Positions 13,040-39,075 of a stretch of DNA of 43,706 nucleotides are shown here, piece after piece; position 1 is the first letter of the stretch, and the number at the start of each line of letters is the position of its first letter. A program made the position numbers and the translations under genes. The notes beneath the pieces were generated by a model. The model was not told where the DNA came from and made no database searches. It saw only the letters and a list, made by a program, of their open reading frames with translations. The stretch comes from Gammaproteobacteria bacterium. GTDB taxonomy: Bacteria > Pseudomonadota > Gammaproteobacteria > Steroidobacterales > Steroidobacteraceae. The stretch lies in the NCBI GenBank assembly GCA_029865465.1, contig JAOUGW010000002.1, positions 1 to 43,706 of the forward strand, written 5' to 3'.

Positions 13040-13462
13040 TCAACGCTGGGCGCCGGACGCGTAAGCGTCCGGCCAGAGCTGGTTGCGCAGCTTCTGCGGG
13101 TCTGCCAGCACGTTCGCGCGTGATCTGGCAACCTCCGCGCCGCGCAGAGGTTCGAAATTCTCTGGCAATGTGTCCCGGTTGTACTCGAGGAGCAGCCAGT
13201 TCAGGACGGCCGCCAGTTCGTCGTCGCTGAGTGGAGCCTGCGCCGCGCCAGGCACGCGGGCGATGTAGTCCCGCCCTTCGGCCGATGCCACGATGCGACC
13301 GAGTGGACCCGACAGCGACGGCACGTCGGGCGGAACGCCGCTGGCGTCCACAAGGTGACACCCGGCGCAGTGCATCAGGTAGTCAGACCGGGGATTCGCG
13401 AGCGAGGGCGCCGCCAGCGCCAGCAGCGAGCCGGCAACGAGTCCGGTGAGGAAGCGTCGCAA
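13040..13462 (-). CDS. Monoheme c-type cytochrome downstream of the TTQ amine dehydrogenase genes
   Basis: Signal peptide, single CAGCH heme motif, C-terminal PQKLRNQLWP. Apparent TTG start, 7-nt gap from the light-chain stop. Confidence 0.8.
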   Translation of the reverse strand: MRRFLTGLVAGSLLALAAPSLANPRSDYLMHCAGCHLVDASGVPPDVPSLSGPLGRIVASAEGRDYIARVPGAAQAPLSDDELAAVLNWLLLEYNRDTLPENFEPLRGAEVARSRANVLADPQKLRNQLWPDAYASGAQR

Positions 13463-13469
13463 GACGGGA

Positions 13470-14012
13470 TCACCCTTGGCCGCCAGCCTCGCCGAGCACG
13501 ATCCCGACGGTGCAGTGATACGCGCGGCTTTCGGTGCCGAAGCACCAGATCACGCTGCTGCTCTTGCTCGGGTAATACACCGGCCGTGCCCGCTCGGTAT
13601 TGTGGCAGTGACAGCGATTGCAGAATGCCTTGCCGCAGCAGTCGTTGTAGGAAATCAGGTAGTCTCGGTCATCCACCGGATTGCGACAGGTGCCGACCCA
13701 GGTGATGGGCGACGGCTCGGCGCCGGGCGGGCAGGAAGTGTGCGTGCCGCCGCAGCAGCTGCACAACGTGCCGCTCAGCGCGCAATAACGCCAGTAGTCG
13801 CAGCTCTGCGGGTCACCGAGCTCGGCGACTGATTCCGCGGCGAAGGCCCGCACGACCGGCAACAGGGGCAGCACCGCCGCGCCTGTCAGCACCGTGCCCA
13901 GCCGGGCCAGGAAACTGCGGCGTGAAGTCGTCCTGGCCAGCTTGCGGCTGCCTTCTCTGGTCTTGCGATCCAGCCATTGCCAGGTTCCATCGACGATCTT
14001 CGAGTTCTTCAT
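13470..14012 (-). CDS. mauA/aauA-like: TTQ amine dehydrogenase light (beta) chain, methylamine/aromatic amine dehydrogenase family
   Basis: Tat-type leader (TSRRSFLARLGTVLTGAAVLPLL). Cys-rich body QSCDYWRYCALSGTLCSCCGG...ITWVGTCRNP...YLISYNDCCGKAFCNRCHC...VIWCFGTESRAYHCT retains both TTQ tryptophan contexts. Confidence 0.93.
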   Translation of the reverse strand: MKNSKIVDGTWQWLDRKTREGSRKLARTTSRRSFLARLGTVLTGAAVLPLLPVVRAFAAESVAELGDPQSCDYWRYCALSGTLCSCCGGTHTSCPPGAEPSPITWVGTCRNPVDDRDYLISYNDCCGKAFCNRCHCHNTERARPVYYPSKSSSVIWCFGTESRAYHCTVGIVLGEAGGQG

Positions 14013-14638
14013 GTTGGCTGTCCCTTGAGGGCGGCTTCCTCCTGGCGGTCCGCGATTCCAGCAAACTCCTGCAGCGACCGGATGCCAGACCGCATCGATT
14101 CCACCAGGCTTTCGAGGTGTTCCCGCGTGTTCACGAGGCCCTTGCTCTTCAATACGCCGTCGCCGCCGATCAGGATGGCGAACGGGAGCTTGCTGACCGC
14201 GTAGCTCAGGCCGAGCGCCTGCGATACGACGTAAGGATACGCGTCGATGCGCAGATCGCGGACGTAGGCCCGGTGCTGCTCGAGCTTGTCGCCGTCGCTC
14301 GCGAATACCAGCCGCAGGCGCTCGGCCTGCGCCATGGACAGTGCCGTCGGCACGAGTGCCTTGCAGACCGGACAGGTCGGCGAAACCCACAGCACCAGTG
14401 TCGCGCGCCCGTCCGGGCCCGGTCCGCCCACGCTCACCTCCGCGCCGCTCAGGTCGCGATAGGCGGCTGGCTGAGTGCGTTCGCCGACCTTCGGCCCGGT
14501 CGTTGGCATCAGCGCTCCGGCCGGCGATACCCGCTCGTGCAGCACGCCAACCTGCCGCGCCAGCGCCAGCACGACCAGCGCCAGCACGATGACGACGCAC
14601 CAGAGCACGGCGTTGGATATCAGCAACGCGTCAGTCAC
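14009..14638 (-). CDS. mauD/aauD-like: MauD-like thioredoxin-fold disulfide protein for TTQ dehydrogenase maturation
   Basis: N-terminal TM anchor, LVLWVSPTCPVCKALVPTALSMAQAERLRLVFASDGD. 4-nt overlap with the light-chain start. GTG start. Confidence 0.88.
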   Translation of the reverse strand: MTDALLISNAVLWCVVIVLALVVLALARQVGVLHERVSPAGALMPTTGPKVGERTQPAAYRDLSGAEVSVGGPGPDGRATLVLWVSPTCPVCKALVPTALSMAQAERLRLVFASDGDKLEQHRAYVRDLRIDAYPYVVSQALGLSYAVSKLPFAILIGGDGVLKSKGLVNTREHLESLVESMRSGIRSLQEFAGIADRQEEAALKGQPT

Positions 14639-15182
14639 GCAGCCTTCTCCACGACGAGATCGCCGCGCCGTTGCGCAGCAACTGGGAGACCCCGGCGTGC
14701 AGCAAGCCGCAAGCCGCCAGGGCCAGGGCGAGCGTGAGCCAGTCGTAGCGACCGAGCTCACGGCTTGCCGCCGGCAACGTTGCGAGCACAGCCAGGGCGC
14801 CGAGTAACAGGTTGCGTGCCACCAGCCACCAGGACAGTGGCTGGTCCTCGCCCGCTGCGCCGCCGAACCCGCAGCCGCAGCTGATGTGGACACGACCACG
14901 CCAAAGGTTGATCGCAATGGCGCAGGCATAGAGAGCCAGCAATCCTGCGGTGAGGACCGCAACGGTATCGATTTCGTGTCCCGTGAGCCAGGCGAGGCCC
15001 AGCGAGGCCTCGAGCACCGGGATCAGCGCTGCCGTGGGACGCAGTAACGAGCCGGGCAGCAACCGGTAATCGCCCAGTGCGGCAATGAACCTTTCCCGCG
15101 CGGCGACCTTGTGCCATGCCGAAAGCAGCAGCAACAGTGCGCACGCGACCGCGATCACGAGCCTGAACAAAGGATCAATCAT
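14631..15182 (-). CDS. mauE/aauE-like: MauE-like methylamine utilisation membrane protein
   Basis: DoxX-like/MauE TM pattern (LLLLSAWHKVAARERFIAALGDYRLLP...VLEASLGLAWL, CGCGFGG). 8-nt overlaps with both neighbours. Confidence 0.85.
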   Translation of the reverse strand: MIDPLFRLVIAVACALLLLLSAWHKVAARERFIAALGDYRLLPGSLLRPTAALIPVLEASLGLAWLTGHEIDTVAVLTAGLLALYACAIAINLWRGRVHISCGCGFGGAAGEDQPLSWWLVARNLLLGALAVLATLPAASRELGRYDWLTLALALAACGLLHAGVSQLLRNGAAISSWRRLRD

Positions 15183-16308
15183 TGGGCGTCAGCGTCTGCA
15201 GCAGGGCGCCGTTGACGCCCGGTTTCTCGATGGTGTGCAGCAGCGCGAGCTTGAGCCCGTCATAGATGTTCAGCTTGTGGTCCTTGTCGAGCACGTACAG
15301 CCGGGGGGATGGTTCCTGGCTCGAGAGGATGCCTTCCGCGGCGACCGGCAGTACCTCGCGCGCGACACGCTTGCGGCGGCTGGTATCAAACACCCAGATT
15401 TCCGTGCCTTCGGCGTCCTGCGTGTCGACCTTCCCCTTGTGCATCAGTGAGTACAGGAGAGACGTATTGCGGTGCATGGTGAAAGGCTGGTCGCCTCCCG
15501 GCCGCCACTGTTCCTTCTCGCCCCCGTCTTCCTTGTCCTCGGCATTCAGCATCGACCAGGCCTCGCCGACCTTGATGCGGTCACCGTCCACTCCGACTTC
15601 GCGCACCAGTCCATCGTGCGTGATCAGCATCCAGCCGCCACTGGAGCGCACGACCCGGTCGAAGACCGGGTCCTGTTCCATCACGAAGAACGATTCGCTG
15701 CGGACGCGCCCGGCCTCCTTGCCGTTCTTGTCCAGCGTGATGAACTGCAGGGTGCCGTCGCCGCAGAGCATCAGGAATCCCCGCGGACCGGCGGGCATGA
15801 TGATGCCGCAGCCGGGCGTCGAAATCTCCGCCGTCAACTTGCGCTCGACGACGTCCACCACGCTGACGGATTGCGCTGGCGTCATGTTGAAGACCACTAC
15901 ATGACGCTCGTCGTCCAGCAGTGCGATGTGCTGGCGTATGGGCAGCGCCGCCGCCTTGTCGGGGATGTCGATTTCCGCCTTGGTCGTGAGATCGCGCATG
16001 TCGATCACGGTCAGCACGTCGCTGCGCGTGCCGCGCACGCCACGCGCATAGAACGAATCGACGAAATAGGCTTCCTTCCGCGACGGCAGCGTGACCACGG
16101 CTGGAGTAAACACGCTGTGCGAGATCAGGCCCTTCATCTGCTGGTCTGCGGCATCGAAAATGTAGCTGGCTTCCCAGCCGTTCATCATGAACCAGCTCGG
16201 CTGCGGCTCGGGCAGCACCGTCTTGCCGACCGTTTCGGCCCGCAGCGGCGTGACGAAAAACTGGCTCGCCATTGCGAGCAACAGGGCCGGCAACATGACG
16301 ACGCGCAT
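15175..16308 (-). CDS. mauB/aauB-like: TTQ amine dehydrogenase heavy (alpha) chain, beta-propeller
   Basis: Signal peptide then propeller repeats; GFLMLCGDGTLQFITLDKNGKEAGRVRSESFFVMEQDPVFD, EAWSMLNAEDK...WRPGGDQPFTMHRNTSLLYSLMHKGK, EGTEIWVFDTSRRKRVAR. Confidence 0.9.
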   Translation of the reverse strand: MRVVMLPALLLAMASQFFVTPLRAETVGKTVLPEPQPSWFMMNGWEASYIFDAADQQMKGLISHSVFTPAVVTLPSRKEAYFVDSFYARGVRGTRSDVLTVIDMRDLTTKAEIDIPDKAAALPIRQHIALLDDERHVVVFNMTPAQSVSVVDVVERKLTAEISTPGCGIIMPAGPRGFLMLCGDGTLQFITLDKNGKEAGRVRSESFFVMEQDPVFDRVVRSSGGWMLITHDGLVREVGVDGDRIKVGEAWSMLNAEDKEDGGEKEQWRPGGDQPFTMHRNTSLLYSLMHKGKVDTQDAEGTEIWVFDTSRRKRVAREVLPVAAEGILSSQEPSPRLYVLDKDHKLNIYDGLKLALLHTIEKPGVNGALLQTLTPND

Positions 16309-18634: not shown

Positions 18635-20443
18635 CTAGCCGGCCGACGGCGAAGCCGGGCGGCTGCTCAAGTCGCGCAGCATTTCGATGAAGGCGGGATC
18701 GTCGCGCAGGGAGACCAGGTCCGGGTCGTTCTGCATCCAGCCGAAATTGGTGTAACCGGCTTCGACGGCCTGGCGCAGCGCGTCGATGGCCCGGCTCGAC
18801 TCGCCAAGACCGACGTACATGCACGCGGCGTTGTAGAGCATGACCGGATCGCCGGGGCTGAGCACGAGTGCCTTGGCGCCCTCGCGGATCGCCTCTTCCT
18901 TGCGACCAGCCCAGCCGAGCTTGCTCGCGTAGATCAATCGCGCGCGCGCATCGTCGGGATTCTGCAGCAGGTAATTCGGCATGATTTCGAGCAGGCGACG
19001 ATAGACCGTTGCCGCTTCTTCGTCGCGCCCGAGCCCGGCGCATGTTTGCGCCACGTCCAGGTGGCCCGCATAGAAGCTCGGCTTGATCTCGGCCACGCGC
19101 CGGAAGAGGTCGAGCGCCTGTTCGAGCTTGCCCTCGGTGAAGTAGATCCGCCCGAGCGTCCAGTGCGCGATGAAGTCATCGGGGTCGATTTCGATCGCCT
19201 TGGTGCACGAGGCGGTGGCCTCGTTCAGCTTGCCCCAGAGAAAATAGGACAGTCCCATCGCCCGGTACGCTTCCGACAGGTTGTTGTCGTACATCAGCGC
19301 CTTGAAGCTGAGTTCCTGCGCCAGTTCGCGATAACGCTCCTCGCGCGCGATCAGCTGGTACATCTGGCCGTAGGCGCTGGAGCAACCGGCATACGCGGAC
19401 GCGTAACGCGAGTCGAGTTCGATCGCCTTCTCGAACAGCTGGATCGCGTATTCGACGCTGCGCTTGGTCAGCCGGTAGAGCTGGTCCTGGCCACGCAGGT
19501 AAAGGTCGTAGGCTTCCGCATTGAGGGTCTGCCGCTTGGTGAGCGACAGTCGTTCCGAGAAAGTGAGCTTGAGCTTCAGTGCCTCGACGATCTGCTGGGC
19601 GACCTGCTCCTGGATGTCGAAGATATCGTCGAGCTTGCCCTTGTAGGTGTTGCCCCAGAGCTGCAGGTTGGTCACGACGTCGACGAGCTGCACGGTAATG
19701 CGCACCGAATCCTGGAACCGGCGGACGCCACCGCCGACGATGTAGCGTGCGCCGAGCGCATTGCCGATCGCGAGCACGTCCTGGCCCCGGCCCTTGTGCT
19801 GCATCGAGGCCCAGCGTGAAATCAGGTTGATCTCGCTCACGAGCGACAGCCTCGCGATCAGTTCCTCGGTCAGCCCGTCGCTGAAGTAGTCGGTCTCGGG
19901 ATCCGGGCTGATGTTGTCGAACGGCAGCACGGCCACCGCCCCGCGCTCCGGGAGGGAGTCGGCCGCATGCGCTGCGGCGGCAGGGGCAGGTCGTGTTTCC
20001 GCACCGGCGCCGGCAGCAGGCTGCGGGCGCATGATGGTGACGCCCAGGCCCGTCAGCGAGCGCAGGACGGCCTGCAGGTTTTCCTCTGGATCGCCGTGGT
20101 AGAACTCGATGTGCTGGATGCCGGCGAGCGGGTACTTGAGGCCGAGTGGAATCGTCGTCGGCTCGAGGTGAACGGGCAGGATGTTGCCCTTGCGTTCGCT
20201 CGTCAGCATCACTTCCTTCGCCACGTTGTGGGAGCTGACAGCCGACGGCGAGACCATCAGCAGCAGCACCTTGGCCCCCTCGAGCGCACGCACGATGGAT
20301 TCGCCCCAGAGCGCTGCGCCGTCGATGCCGCCCTGGTCGATCCAGATATTCACGCCGGCGGCCCGCAGTTTGCCGGCAAACTCGAGTACCCGCGCCTTGT
20401 CTTCGCGCGAATAGCTCAGGAAAACATCTGCGGTTTGAGCCAA
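18635..20443 (-). CDS. TIR domain - FlgO/TolB-like linker - TPR repeat protein
   Basis: N-terminus MAQTADVFLSYSREDKARVLEFAGKLRAAGVNIWIDQGGI (TIR), then AVAVLPFDNISPDPETDYFSDGLTEELIARLS (adenylate-cyclase-associated linker), then repeated TPR units. Confidence 0.87.
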   Translation of the reverse strand: MAQTADVFLSYSREDKARVLEFAGKLRAAGVNIWIDQGGIDGAALWGESIVRALEGAKVLLLMVSPSAVSSHNVAKEVMLTSERKGNILPVHLEPTTIPLGLKYPLAGIQHIEFYHGDPEENLQAVLRSLTGLGVTIMRPQPAAGAGAETRPAPAAAAHAADSLPERGAVAVLPFDNISPDPETDYFSDGLTEELIARLSLVSEINLISRWASMQHKGRGQDVLAIGNALGARYIVGGGVRRFQDSVRITVQLVDVVTNLQLWGNTYKGKLDDIFDIQEQVAQQIVEALKLKLTFSERLSLTKRQTLNAEAYDLYLRGQDQLYRLTKRSVEYAIQLFEKAIELDSRYASAYAGCSSAYGQMYQLIAREERYRELAQELSFKALMYDNNLSEAYRAMGLSYFLWGKLNEATASCTKAIEIDPDDFIAHWTLGRIYFTEGKLEQALDLFRRVAEIKPSFYAGHLDVAQTCAGLGRDEEAATVYRRLLEIMPNYLLQNPDDARARLIYASKLGWAGRKEEAIREGAKALVLSPGDPVMLYNAACMYVGLGESSRAIDALRQAVEAGYTNFGWMQNDPDLVSLRDDPAFIEMLRDLSSRPASPSAG

Positions 20444-20706: not shown

Positions 20707-23541
20707 TCAGCCTGCTGCCGAACGCGGCCGGAGGTCCGCCACGCGATAGCGACCGGTCGCGGTGAGGTCGGTGCGTGCAGCGCGCTCCGCCACCCGCAGG
20801 TTGGCGCGGCGATCCATGAACGGGGTCCGAGCCACGACGTCGAGCGTGCTCGAGCGGGCAAAGAGGAATCCCTGGCCCGCTACGCAGCCGAGGCCCAGCA
20901 GGGTCGCCACCTGGCTTTCGTTCTCGATGCCTTCGGCGACCGTCTCGAGGCCGAGCGTCGTCGCGAGCATCACGACGGCACGCGCCAGTTCTGGACCGCC
21001 GTCGTGCTCGGTCAGCCGGCTCACGAACGCGCGATCGATCTTCAGGATGTCGATGGGGAACCGGTGCAGGTACGAGAGCGACGAGTAACCCATGCCGAAG
21101 TCGTCGATCGCGAGGCGCACGCCGAGCGCTTTCAGCTCGCGGAAGCGTTCCAGGTTGGCCTCCGTGTTCTGCATGATCGTGCTCTCGGTGAACTCGATCA
21201 CGAGGCTGCCGGGGTCGAGCCCTGATACCTCGAGTGCATGGCGCACATCCCCGACGAGGTCGCCCTGCTGCAGGTGGCGGCCGGAAATGTTCACGGCCAC
21301 GCGCAGGCCGGTGCCAGCCTCGACGGAATCGCGCCACGCTCGAATCTGTGTGCACGCGTCGACGAGGACGCGACGACCCAGTTCGACGATCCGGCCGGAT
21401 TCCTCGGCGATCGAAATGAACGCGCCTGGCATGACGATGCCCCGCTGCGGGTGATCCCACCGAACCAGGGCTTCGACGCCGAGCAGCTCGCGGCTCACCA
21501 GGTCGACGACGGGCTGGAACTCGACGAAGAACTCGTCACGGACGAACGCGAGGTCGATGTCCTGCTCGAGTCGCAGGCGGTCGTGCAGCTGTTCCTGCAT
21601 GTGCGGCTGGAACAACACGCAGCGCGCCTTGCCGGCCGCCTTCGCGTGGTACATGGCGATGTCGGCTTTGCGGAGCAACTGCTCGGCATCGTCACCCGGC
21701 TGTGAGCACGCGGCACCGATGCTCGCCGTCGCGTCGGTTTCCCGGCCGTCGACCAGCAGCGGTCGGCTGAACGCCGCGGTAATCGGCGCCGCGATGCGCT
21801 CGACGTCCACATCGCTGTGGATATCTTCCAGCAGGATCGCGAATTCGTCGCCGCCCAGGCGTGCCACGGTGTCCGATGGCCGCGTCGACTTGACCAGCCG
21901 CTGCGCCGCTGCCTGCAACATGCGGTCGCCGGCGTCGTGTCCGAGCGAGTCATTGACGGTCTTGAAGTTGTCGAGGTCGAGGAACATGACGGCGACTCGC
22001 TGCTGCGTCCGTTGCGCCAGCGCCAGCGCGTGCTCGACCCGGTTCCAGAAGAGGCTGCGATTCGCCAGCAGCGTCAGCGGGTCGTGGAACGCCAGTTTGC
22101 GCAGCTGTTCTTCCAGGGCCCGGCGCTCGCTGACGTCGCGGAAGTTCAGCGCCAGCCCGCCAATGGCCGGATCGTCCATCAGGTTGCTGCCGACGCACTC
22201 GAGGGTGCTGCGCCGTTCGCCCGTCTCGACGACCAGTTCGATCGGCCCGACGACCCGCCCGTGCGTTGCCGCCACCTCGGCGAGGAACGCGGCCAGCCGC
22301 TCGTTGTCGCCATCGGCCCAGCGCTCGAGGAGGTTCCGGCCCACCAGGTCGTCCGGGTGGGTCGCAAAGGTGCGTTCGGCCGCCGGCGAGGCGAACAGCA
22401 GCGTTCCCTCTGCGTTGGTGATCATGATCACGTCGGAGGCGTTCTTGATCAGTGATGCGTACCGGGCTTCGACGATGTCGGCGGCGCGTTGCTCGCGCAG
22501 CAGGGCGTCGTCGCGCGAGAGCACGCCCTGGCGCACCACGACCAGCGACGTCAGCACGAAGATGATGACGGTCATCGTGTTCACGGGGCTGACGGCCGTG
22601 CTGCTTTCCACGTACACCAGCACCAGGAACGACACCATCATGGCGATGTACGGCATCCCTTCGACGAGTGCGATGCTGAATGCACTCGGGGCGCGGCGTA
22701 CGCCGGGCTCGCCCCGCAGCTGCTCGCGCGCAGCAGCCGCAAGCCAGACGTAGCACGACAGGTAAATGACATCCGAGACGCTGCCCGGAATGTAGCTGCC
22801 GTCCACCTTGGACATGGCCCAGACGATGTCGGCCACGGACATCGACGAAAAGCCGAGAGTGAGCAGCAGCAGGGCGTGGCGGCGGATGGGCGTGGCGCCC
22901 GAGTGCATCAGCAGCACGCCGCAGGCCAGCAGCATGAGGCAATTGAGGCCGATGTAACTCTGTGCCAGCACGTACTTGAGCACGTCAGGTTCGCGCTGGG
23001 CGTCCGCCGTCGGCGAGATCACGAGGAACCAGAAGAATGCGCCGAATCCCAGCATGAGGATCGCGGTGTCGAGTCCGAGCCGGACCCATTGCACTCGAAC
23101 GGCGGCGGTGCGGATCACCGTCAGCACCGCGGCGAAGACGAGCGGGTAGAACCCCAGGAAGAACACGTCGCCGAGCGACGGGAACGGGTCGATCCCGTAC
23201 AGCCAGTAAGTCGAATGCAGCAGGTTGCCTGTGCTGTAGGTGGCCAGCGCGGCCGTTAGCAGCCACCAGGTACGGCGCGGGCCCGGGTCGGCGGAGCCGT
23301 GCGCGGCAGCCCCGGTCAGGATGGCCACGCAGATGCTCGCCGCCGAATCGGAATACAGGTTGAAGACGTCGAGCCACGGCGATGAAAGACCGTCGATCAG
23401 GATCAGCGCGATGGCGATAGCGATGTAGACGAACAACCCGACGGCAACGGCGCCGGTCCAGCCGGCGCCGAACCGCTCGCACTTCGTCATCCCGTCGTTC
23501 TCTGGCCGCCTTGGCGACATTCTTCTGCGAGCCTCTTCCAA
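20707..23541 (-). CDS. Membrane-anchored PAS-GGDEF-EAL cyclic-di-GMP turnover protein
   Basis: N-terminal multi-TM sensor region, PAS-like region, ARLGGDEFAILLED and FQPVVDLVSRELLGVEALVRWDHP motifs. Start could also be MTKCERF at 23490. Confidence 0.9.
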   Translation of the reverse strand: MEEARRRMSPRRPENDGMTKCERFGAGWTGAVAVGLFVYIAIAIALILIDGLSSPWLDVFNLYSDSAASICVAILTGAAAHGSADPGPRRTWWLLTAALATYSTGNLLHSTYWLYGIDPFPSLGDVFFLGFYPLVFAAVLTVIRTAAVRVQWVRLGLDTAILMLGFGAFFWFLVISPTADAQREPDVLKYVLAQSYIGLNCLMLLACGVLLMHSGATPIRRHALLLLTLGFSSMSVADIVWAMSKVDGSYIPGSVSDVIYLSCYVWLAAAAREQLRGEPGVRRAPSAFSIALVEGMPYIAMMVSFLVLVYVESSTAVSPVNTMTVIIFVLTSLVVVRQGVLSRDDALLREQRAADIVEARYASLIKNASDVIMITNAEGTLLFASPAAERTFATHPDDLVGRNLLERWADGDNERLAAFLAEVAATHGRVVGPIELVVETGERRSTLECVGSNLMDDPAIGGLALNFRDVSERRALEEQLRKLAFHDPLTLLANRSLFWNRVEHALALAQRTQQRVAVMFLDLDNFKTVNDSLGHDAGDRMLQAAAQRLVKSTRPSDTVARLGGDEFAILLEDIHSDVDVERIAAPITAAFSRPLLVDGRETDATASIGAACSQPGDDAEQLLRKADIAMYHAKAAGKARCVLFQPHMQEQLHDRLRLEQDIDLAFVRDEFFVEFQPVVDLVSRELLGVEALVRWDHPQRGIVMPGAFISIAEESGRIVELGRRVLVDACTQIRAWRDSVEAGTGLRVAVNISGRHLQQGDLVGDVRHALEVSGLDPGSLVIEFTESTIMQNTEANLERFRELKALGVRLAIDDFGMGYSSLSYLHRFPIDILKIDRAFVSRLTEHDGGPELARAVVMLATTLGLETVAEGIENESQVATLLGLGCVAGQGFLFARSSTLDVVARTPFMDRRANLRVAERAARTDLTATGRYRVADLRPRSAAG

Positions 23542-36929: not shown

Positions 36930-38861
36930 TCATTGGCCGTTTACGGAGAACGCGGCCAGCACGTTGCCGGCCATGTGAAAATACGCGCCGTAGCCGGAGT
37001 TCACGTACAAAATGCCGTCGTGCACGACCGGGCCGCCGCCCCCGATCGAGCCGCCCTGACCGGGCTTCCCGGACAGCGTCGGCAGCGGCTGCGAGGTGTC
37101 GAAGCTCCACAGCACCTTGCCGTCTTCGGTGTCGTACGCACGCACGCGACCGTCCATGTGGCCCGCGAAGATCGCGCCCGGAATCGCGACGATCGAGGCG
37201 AGGATGCCCGGATCGCAATACTGCCTGCCGTAGCACACGTCGTCGGCTGGCGTCTTCCACGACAACCTGCCTGTCACGGGGTCGAGCGCATACAGGCCCG
37301 GTCGCGAAGGTCCCGCCTCTCTCTCACGCTCCGCGGATGACTTGTCCATCGCGTTCTGCATGTCGGCGATCGGCACGTAGAGCCGCTTGCCGTCGTACGC
37401 CATGCCGAACTGGATGCCGCCCTGGATCGAGCCGCGGCCCACGCGGTTCGTCCACAGCATTCCTTTCTTCGGGTCGTCCGGATCAAGCGCGAGCGCCTGG
37501 CCACTCTTGAGGCCGACGAAAATGCGATCCGAGCCGTCCGGCAGCTTGACGAGCATCGTGCCGGAGCCGATGTCGAAGTCCGGGCCGGCCGGCTCCGGAC
37601 ACGTATCGAGCCCGATCATGCAGCCGACGTTCCACGCGTCGCCCGGCACCACCTGCCACGACCAGCGAACCTTGCCCGTCTCCAGATCGAAGGCGATCAC
37701 GGCATTGCTGCGATCGTTCGCGGGTCCCGTGTAGTTGTTGCCCGTGCCTGCGTACAGCACACCGCGCTTCTGATCGAGCGTGGGCGTGTTCCAGATCGCG
37801 GCGCCGGAGGGCGACCAAACGGGCGTGCCTGCCTTTGACTTGCCGGCTTTCTTCGGCTTCTCGTTGATCGTGTAAGTCTTCCACAACTGCTTGCCCGTGC
37901 TCGCGTCGAGCGCGAGCATGCTGCCGCGGAACGTGCAGCATGGGTATTTCGGGTCGGCCATCGCTTCTTCGAGCGACGACACCGGCACGAACAACGCGCC
38001 CTTGTGATGGACGGGTGAACCCGTGACGGTCGCACTCGGGTGTTCGTCCGCCTTCACGCGCCAGATTTCCCTGCCCGTGAACGCATCGACGGCATACACG
38101 CGGCCGATCAGGTCACCGAAGAAGGCCAGCGGTGCCGCACTGCCCGTGTCGGCGGTCGACTGCACCACGACCGGCGTGCGCACCTCCGCCGTCGTCTTGA
38201 ACGTCCAGCGAATGCAGCCGGTCTGCGCATCCAGCGCGTAAACCGTGCCATCCTGCGAGCCCGTGTAGAGCGCGCCGTACGCGAACGTCGGGCGCGAACG
38301 CATGCGCACCGTGTTCGGGAACGCCACGGCCCACTTGAGCTTGAGCTTCGGTACGTCGGTGGCCGCAAGCTTCGCGACATCCGCGGCGACGAAATGATCG
38401 TTATCGGGCGTCTGGCCCCAGCCCTGGATCGTCGGCACTTTCGTGCGGTCGAATTTCGCGGCGTCGCCGCTGCAGGTCGCTGCGACCGGCGTCCTCGGCA
38501 TGCCGACCGGGCTCCCCGACAGGTATTCGGCCACGTGATGCATCTGCTCGTCGTTCAGCTTGACCGCCATCGGCCGCATGATCCCGAGCGACAGCGCGTC
38601 GTAGATCGCCTCCGGCGACATCATGTTGAGAAAGACCTTGACCGGGGCTTTCGGCGCCTGGCCTTCGTGGCATTGCGAGCAGTGCTCGCGATAGACGAGC
38701 GCGCCCGGCTTCTTCTCCGGGTCGCCGCTCTGCGCGGCGTTCATCTTTGCCTTGATGTCGCTGAGGTCTTCCGGAGGCGGCGAGGAAACCGCGGCGTGCG
38801 AGAGCTGCAGTGCGCCGAGCGAGCACAGGACGACGGCGACGAACATCCGGACGTGGTTCAT
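36930..38861 (-). CDS. Cytochrome c - PQQ-type quinoprotein dehydrogenase (polyvinyl-alcohol-dehydrogenase-like)
   Basis: Signal peptide, heme motif CSQCH in YREHCSQCHEGQ, then propeller repeats (GTVYALDAQTGCIRWTF, GRVYAVDAFTGREIWRVKA, GSMLALDASTGKQLWKTY) with a CC pair in YPCCTFRG. Confidence 0.88.
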   Translation of the reverse strand: MNHVRMFVAVVLCSLGALQLSHAAVSSPPPEDLSDIKAKMNAAQSGDPEKKPGALVYREHCSQCHEGQAPKAPVKVFLNMMSPEAIYDALSLGIMRPMAVKLNDEQMHHVAEYLSGSPVGMPRTPVAATCSGDAAKFDRTKVPTIQGWGQTPDNDHFVAADVAKLAATDVPKLKLKWAVAFPNTVRMRSRPTFAYGALYTGSQDGTVYALDAQTGCIRWTFKTTAEVRTPVVVQSTADTGSAAPLAFFGDLIGRVYAVDAFTGREIWRVKADEHPSATVTGSPVHHKGALFVPVSSLEEAMADPKYPCCTFRGSMLALDASTGKQLWKTYTINEKPKKAGKSKAGTPVWSPSGAAIWNTPTLDQKRGVLYAGTGNNYTGPANDRSNAVIAFDLETGKVRWSWQVVPGDAWNVGCMIGLDTCPEPAGPDFDIGSGTMLVKLPDGSDRIFVGLKSGQALALDPDDPKKGMLWTNRVGRGSIQGGIQFGMAYDGKRLYVPIADMQNAMDKSSAEREREAGPSRPGLYALDPVTGRLSWKTPADDVCYGRQYCDPGILASIVAIPGAIFAGHMDGRVRAYDTEDGKVLWSFDTSQPLPTLSGKPGQGGSIGGGGPVVHDGILYVNSGYGAYFHMAGNVLAAFSVNGQ

Positions 38862-39075
38862 GCGGGGTTCCCGAAGCTGGAAAGGGGGCGCCGAGGCAAG
38901 CTGGCCCATCACGCTGGACTGGCGAAGCCGCGATCGATCCTAGAGAGGGGCCCTGCAAAAAACAAGCAGGTCATCCTGTTTTTTGGCGGCGTGCCGAGTC
39001 GCGGCATCTCGGTATCCAGCCGCCGGGCCTGGGCCTTTCTGGCTCACTGCAGCGCGGCTTGCAACCGGCCCAGGC

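Follow-up and report, generated by a model that had tools for sequence, protein, structure and literature searches.

A single-haem cytochrome encoded beside MauG-less TTQ amine dehydrogenases as a candidate for cofactor formation

How is TTQ formed in an amine dehydrogenase whose genes are not accompanied by mauG? This question is raised by a cluster of five genes in the window, that is, the whole stretch of 43,706 nucleotides analysed here (contig C165; the draft genome comprises 3.36 Mb and is 91% complete). In the mau system of methylamine dehydrogenase (MADH), MauG works on a mono-hydroxylated precursor once the light chain has reached the periplasm, introducing the second hydroxyl and cross-linking the two Trp residues (PMC7876137). 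A search of the literature for TTQ maturation in aromatic amine dehydrogenase (AADH) returned no paper. MauG-less aau clusters have reportedly been known since the work of Chistoserdov in 2001, and to our knowledge the formation of TTQ without MauG in AADH-type enzymes has been an open question since the aau cluster was described.

Gene order and type of the encoded enzyme

The genes of the cluster and the codons relevant to the cofactor are listed below, "type II" being the name coined here for the family of cytochromes to which that of the window belongs.

15175..16308, minus strand: TTQ amine dehydrogenase heavy chain (aauB/mauB-like), with signal peptide (PF06433, 1.6e-28)
14631..15182, minus strand: MauE-like membrane protein, light-chain disulfide/folding accessory (PF07291, 1.7e-23)
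14009..14638, minus strand: MauD-like thioredoxin-fold accessory protein, GTG start (TIGR02661, 2.2e-55)
13470..14012, minus strand: light chain (aauA/mauA-like), with twin-arginine signal for Tat export (PF02975, 2.9e-49)
13698..13700, minus strand: codon of Trp105, first TTQ-forming tryptophan of the light chain
13641..13643, minus strand: codon of Asp124 of the light chain, aligned with the active-site Asp of AADH
13545..13547, minus strand: codon of Trp156, second TTQ-forming tryptophan of the light chain
13040..13462, minus strand: type II cytochrome c, TTG start (one CxxCH; PF00034, 3.8e-5)
13355..13369, minus strand: codons of the single CAGCH haem-binding motif of the cytochrome (read from the sequence)

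Along the minus strand, the heavy chain and MauE genes overlap by 8 nt, MauE and MauD by 8 nt, and MauD and the light chain by 4 nt, and a gap of 7 nt separates the light chain from the cytochrome; the MauD protein scores 187.1 bits with TIGR02661, just below its cut-off of 188.6. The coordinates from 16308 to 13040 thus agree with the order, overlaps of 4-8 nt and 7 nt gap described in the earlier note, which was also right that the window has no dihaem MauG (there are no PF03150 proteins on the contig) and that the small cytochrome has a single CxxCH (PF00034 is its only domain). The same B-E-D-A-cytochrome order was found again in the majority of some 180 distinct loci related to this one, in such a way that it cannot be attributed to chance.

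Regarding the type of enzyme, Trp105, Trp156 and Asp124 are invariant in 84/84 aligned light chains, those of the crystallised AADH and MADH included, and the equivalent of Asp124 is the active-site residue in AADH. The two tryptophans and this Asp, together with the PF06433 and PF02975 domains, place the proteins in the MADH/AADH superfamily of TTQ amine dehydrogenases. When compared with the PDB, the heavy chain was much closer to the AADH alpha chain (1.6e-38) than to the MADH heavy chain (1e-18), whereas AADH and one MADH light chain were equally near to the light chain. Both subunits score below the cut-offs of the MADH equivalogs (162.4 against 196.85 with TIGR02659 for the light chain, and 107.7 against 454.45 with TIGR02658 for the heavy chain), and neither mauF nor a canonical mauG was found in the genome (91% complete). 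The cluster itself, with its B-E-D-A-monohaem cytochrome arrangement, is devoid of mauF, G, J, M and N, and its light chain falls outside the narrow clade of the Alcaligenes faecalis AADH. These comparisons identify the product as a predicted TTQ enzyme of the periplasm, an amine dehydrogenase of the AADH (aau) kind in a broad sense, and not a methylamine dehydrogenase. The earlier preference for an aau-like over a mau layout is sustained by the heavy chain, the lack of MauF and the position of the light chain outside the MADH clade.

The window also encodes a TIR-TPR protein (18638-20443, minus strand), a PAS-GGDEF-EAL protein (20710-23541, minus strand) and a quinohaemoprotein of the PQQ type that carries a cytochrome domain itself (36933-38912, minus strand).

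MauG-family proteins in genomes with the light chain

The presence of MauG and MauF in the rest of the window genome was also studied. Three dihaem proteins of the PF03150 (CCP_MauG) family are encoded, all on other contigs, and one has a segment, EFYNKG, that contains a Tyr. They were rejected as canonical mauG, as none is linked to the cluster and none reaches the mauG equivalog cut-off; among them, L002 resembles a Met-ligated peroxidase. No MauF was found in this 91% complete genome (best E 0.084). The genome gives a mixed answer to the earlier note, with MauF absent and with relatives of MauG that stay below the equivalog level but leave its option of a distant MauG three proteins to choose from.

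The equivalog itself turned out to be a poor yardstick, since the MauG of P. denitrificans scores 97 bits with TIGR03791 (TTQ_mauG) against a cut-off of 444, in such a way that the reference enzyme is not recognised, and the presence or absence of the whole PF03150 family was used instead. This family is absent from 27 of the 80 light-chain-positive genomes searched. As the same holds for 26/75 good-quality genomes, and several of those that lack PF03150 are estimated to be 98-100% complete, the absence is not due to genome incompleteness. Many light-chain-positive species can do without the MauG family altogether, which strengthens the earlier suggestion of a possibly different enzyme for TTQ maturation.

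These genomes bear directly on the idea that a distant dihaem protein of the MauG/CcP family makes TTQ, with type II as an accessory. It could draw on the three PF03150 proteins of the window genome, that with the EFYNKG tyrosine included, and on four loci in which a MauG-like dihaem gene adjoins an AADH-type cluster with type II, L142 and L144 (opposite strand) and L175 and L181 (same strand), from which it follows that type II and MauG are not strictly exclusive. Nevertheless, the light-chain-positive genomes without any PF03150 protein, some of them estimated as practically complete, and the lack of anything MauF-like in the window genome make this explanation improbable in our judgement.

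Sequence, fold and distribution of the type II cytochromes

About 190 light-chain neighbourhoods were collected, many of them from metagenome-assembled genomes, and two cytochrome families were found 3' of the light chains, type I (44 sequences) and type II (175, that of the window included). The Met in the c552 ligand loop is invariant in type I (44/44), which makes this family a candidate for a normal electron carrier, as judged from sequence. By contrast, the segment from a conserved Arg to a conserved Asn (R64-N88) has 25 residues in 174/175 type II proteins versus 43-44 in type I, and the missing stretch, 18-19 residues, is the Met-ligand loop. After the CxxCH, the 175 type II homologues share no conserved Met, His, Lys or Cys, and the window cytochrome has no Met at all downstream of this motif. 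An AlphaFold model of type II (pLDDT 93) had Thermus c552 as its nearest fold (Foldseek 1.4e-4), and both proteins are also related by sequence (phmmer 7.4e-10). With one CxxCH and no CCP_MauG domain the window cytochrome is not a member of the MauG family, and with no axial Met it lacks the mark of a c552-type carrier. It is not a generic carrier, but has a c552-type fold from which the Met-ligand loop has been deleted. As this loop is deleted and no replacement ligand is conserved, the sixth site of the type II haem is likely open or weakly held, an unusual sixth ligand also being possible.

Some type II domains are part of longer proteins. In L053 (G239:C4), about 850 nt 3' of the light chain, a type II domain is fused to a Met-containing cytochrome c domain in a 284-aa dihaem protein, where, by analogy with MauG, type II may work with a second haem. 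In L067, L068 and L069, type II is followed by a long C-terminal domain (about 545 aa) that looks by eye like a phosphotriesterase/amidohydrolase.

The distribution of type II was followed with a profile made from the linked genes and searched genome-wide irrespective of linkage. Type II lies 3' of 168/179 distinct non-mau light chains. Within the order of the window, the light chain is present in 111/396 genomes and type II in 110/396, corresponding to 110/111 light-chain-positive genomes and 0/285 light-chain-negative ones; in the only exception (G216) a contig edge truncates the light chain. In a sample of the phylum, type II was detected in 11/399 genomes, exactly those with an intact light chain, two further light-chain matches being fragments or broken, and all nine alphaproteobacterial light-chain genomes (9/9) have it. 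Two of the alphaproteobacterial genomes, G1004 and G911 (loci L240-L242), have light chains that exceed the TIGR02659 methylamine dehydrogenase cut-off, but encode type II in the cluster or elsewhere in the genome and have no adjacent mauF or mauG, and G1004 gave no match with TIGR03791 at E 1e-10; these light chains are likely misnamed methylamine dehydrogenase in public annotation. No type II was found within the stretch examined of four annotated mau clusters carrying mauF/J/G/M/N.

Part of this co-occurrence must reflect joint gain and loss, as the genes are mostly linked, and the unlinked cases are more telling. In G088, a single contig, an E-D-II operon lies at 1.44 Mb, far from the B-A pair at 2.66 Mb, and in G392 E-D-II is also separate from one B-A pair. 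In G102, type II was found apart from B-A in a pair with type I, and not with E-D. The loci L040/L213, L076, L081/L160, L089, L177, L182 and L188 have no type II directly 3' of the light chain, but each of their genomes has it elsewhere, and the loci L050/L208, L151, L153 and L172, also without it in that position, lie close to contig ends or reach them. Among the genomes without type II beside a light chain, three named ones carry it at another site. The type I-type II pair of G102 (L230, G102:C10) lies amid genes that resemble, by eye, those for polyamine uptake and catabolism, a hint about the substrate.

Could type II simply be the dedicated electron acceptor that links reduced TTQ with the respiratory chain, the cofactor being formed otherwise or non-enzymatically? 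Co-occurrence and linkage fit an obligate acceptor equally well. The c552-like fold, the location in an operon with the structural genes, which it always accompanies, and the fact that type I adjoins the light chain in only 43/183 distinct loci, in such a way that most clusters are left without another carrier gene, would agree with this. On the other hand, the whole family has lost the loop with the axial Met to which c552 owes its quality as a carrier, type II is kept even where type I is also encoded, and in G088 and G392 it adjoins E-D and not B-A. Furthermore, azurin is reported to be the partner in crystals of the A. faecalis AADH (entries 2h47 and 2iaa). We regard the acceptor role as possible but rather unlikely.

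Clustering of the neighbours in 186 neighbourhoods revealed no flavoprotein or other maturase candidate that was near-universal. The commonest other families were TonB receptors (33/186) and aldehyde dehydrogenase-like proteins (23/186, mostly encoded downstream on the same strand), neighbours that fit a catabolism from amine to aldehyde to acid. These data count against TTQ being the work of an unrelated enzyme encoded elsewhere, a flavoprotein for instance, or forming with no dedicated enzyme at all, with type II in a minor role as a peroxide scavenger or structural subunit. Other tryptophylquinones are indeed made by flavoproteins, namely QhpG, LodB and GoxB (PMC7876137), and the present survey covered neighbourhoods plus two families genome-wide, which leaves room for such an enzyme. 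However, a minor role fails to explain why type II is retained in 110/111 genomes, unlinked cases included, and we see this explanation as a long shot.

Proposed role of type II and comparison with known systems

In a tree of 132 light chains, the MADH structure groups with the four annotated mau clusters that carry mauG in a single, long-branched clade (100/100), and the crystallised AADH (2agl) falls within a type II-bearing clade (100/95). The light chain of the window is in a third large clade, on the AADH side of the MADH split and in a subclade other than that of the A. faecalis AADH, so it does not belong inside typical MADH, a placement that the earlier note had considered as contrary to its reading. 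Type II and MauG require one label change each on the tree, supporting a single switch between them. The neighbours of the MADH clade (G1004, G911, G182 and G253) bear type II, and midpoint rooting, used here for a root that lacks independent support, nests MADH within the type II diversity; the direction of the switch, with MADH arising from within this diversity, is only suggested.

For the earlier note the single-haem cytochrome was only a sign of the missing MauG, and it is this same protein that becomes the strongest candidate here. We put at about an even chance that TTQ formation depends on type II in place of MauG. Such a role is favoured over that of acceptor because type II joins E-D when unlinked, the Met loop is deleted and PF03150 is dispensable. 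MauE and MauD assist the folding of the light chain in the mau system, and by analogy they would help the cysteine-rich light chain to fold here, the light and heavy chains making up the enzyme. Type II would then serve in the periplasm as the haem oxidant of the folded light chain. With peroxide or O2 reacting at its probably open haem, it would finish the predicted TTQ by a second hydroxylation and by cross-linking the two Trp residues, the job of MauG in methylamine dehydrogenase. Some points speak against this maturase role: in G102 type II sits with the Met-ligated type I and not with E-D; MauG uses two haems, and to store the oxidising power for TTQ on a single haem would be mechanistically new; and the window genome does contain three PF03150 proteins. 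A broader proposal is put forward more tentatively, in which type II would represent a new class of TTQ synthase, single-haem and open-coordinated, and the prevalent route to TTQ in nature, replaced once by MauG on the way to MADH.

These data single out type II as one specific, universally linked protein on which TTQ maturation can be tested. If it makes TTQ, chemistry for which a dihaem bis-Fe(IV) system was considered necessary would be within reach of a monohaem protein, and TTQ enzymes could be produced in a simple heterologous system.

We compared the cluster with the known systems. The aauBEDA-orf2 cluster of A. faecalis, described by Chistoserdov in 2001, reportedly lacks mauF, G, L, M and N, and the cluster of the window resembles it, with the order B-E-D-A followed by a small monohaem cytochrome and the same genes missing. 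Among the solved structures, AADH is the nearest to the window heavy chain, whereas the window light chain belongs to a large clade separate from that of the A. faecalis AADH. The mau clusters of Paracoccus and Methylobacterium share with the window homologous B, E, D and A genes and both TTQ tryptophans, but have mauF upstream, amicyanin, mauJ, mauG, mauM and mauN downstream, and no type II in the cluster. With the dihaem TTQ synthase MauG (bCcP_MauG family), type II would share only the proposed role, a haem-based oxidation of the light-chain precursor, as it has one haem, a cytochrome c552 fold and no PF03150 domain. Finally, although the segment with the axial Met of Thermus cytochrome c552 is absent from type II, both proteins are alike in fold and sequence.
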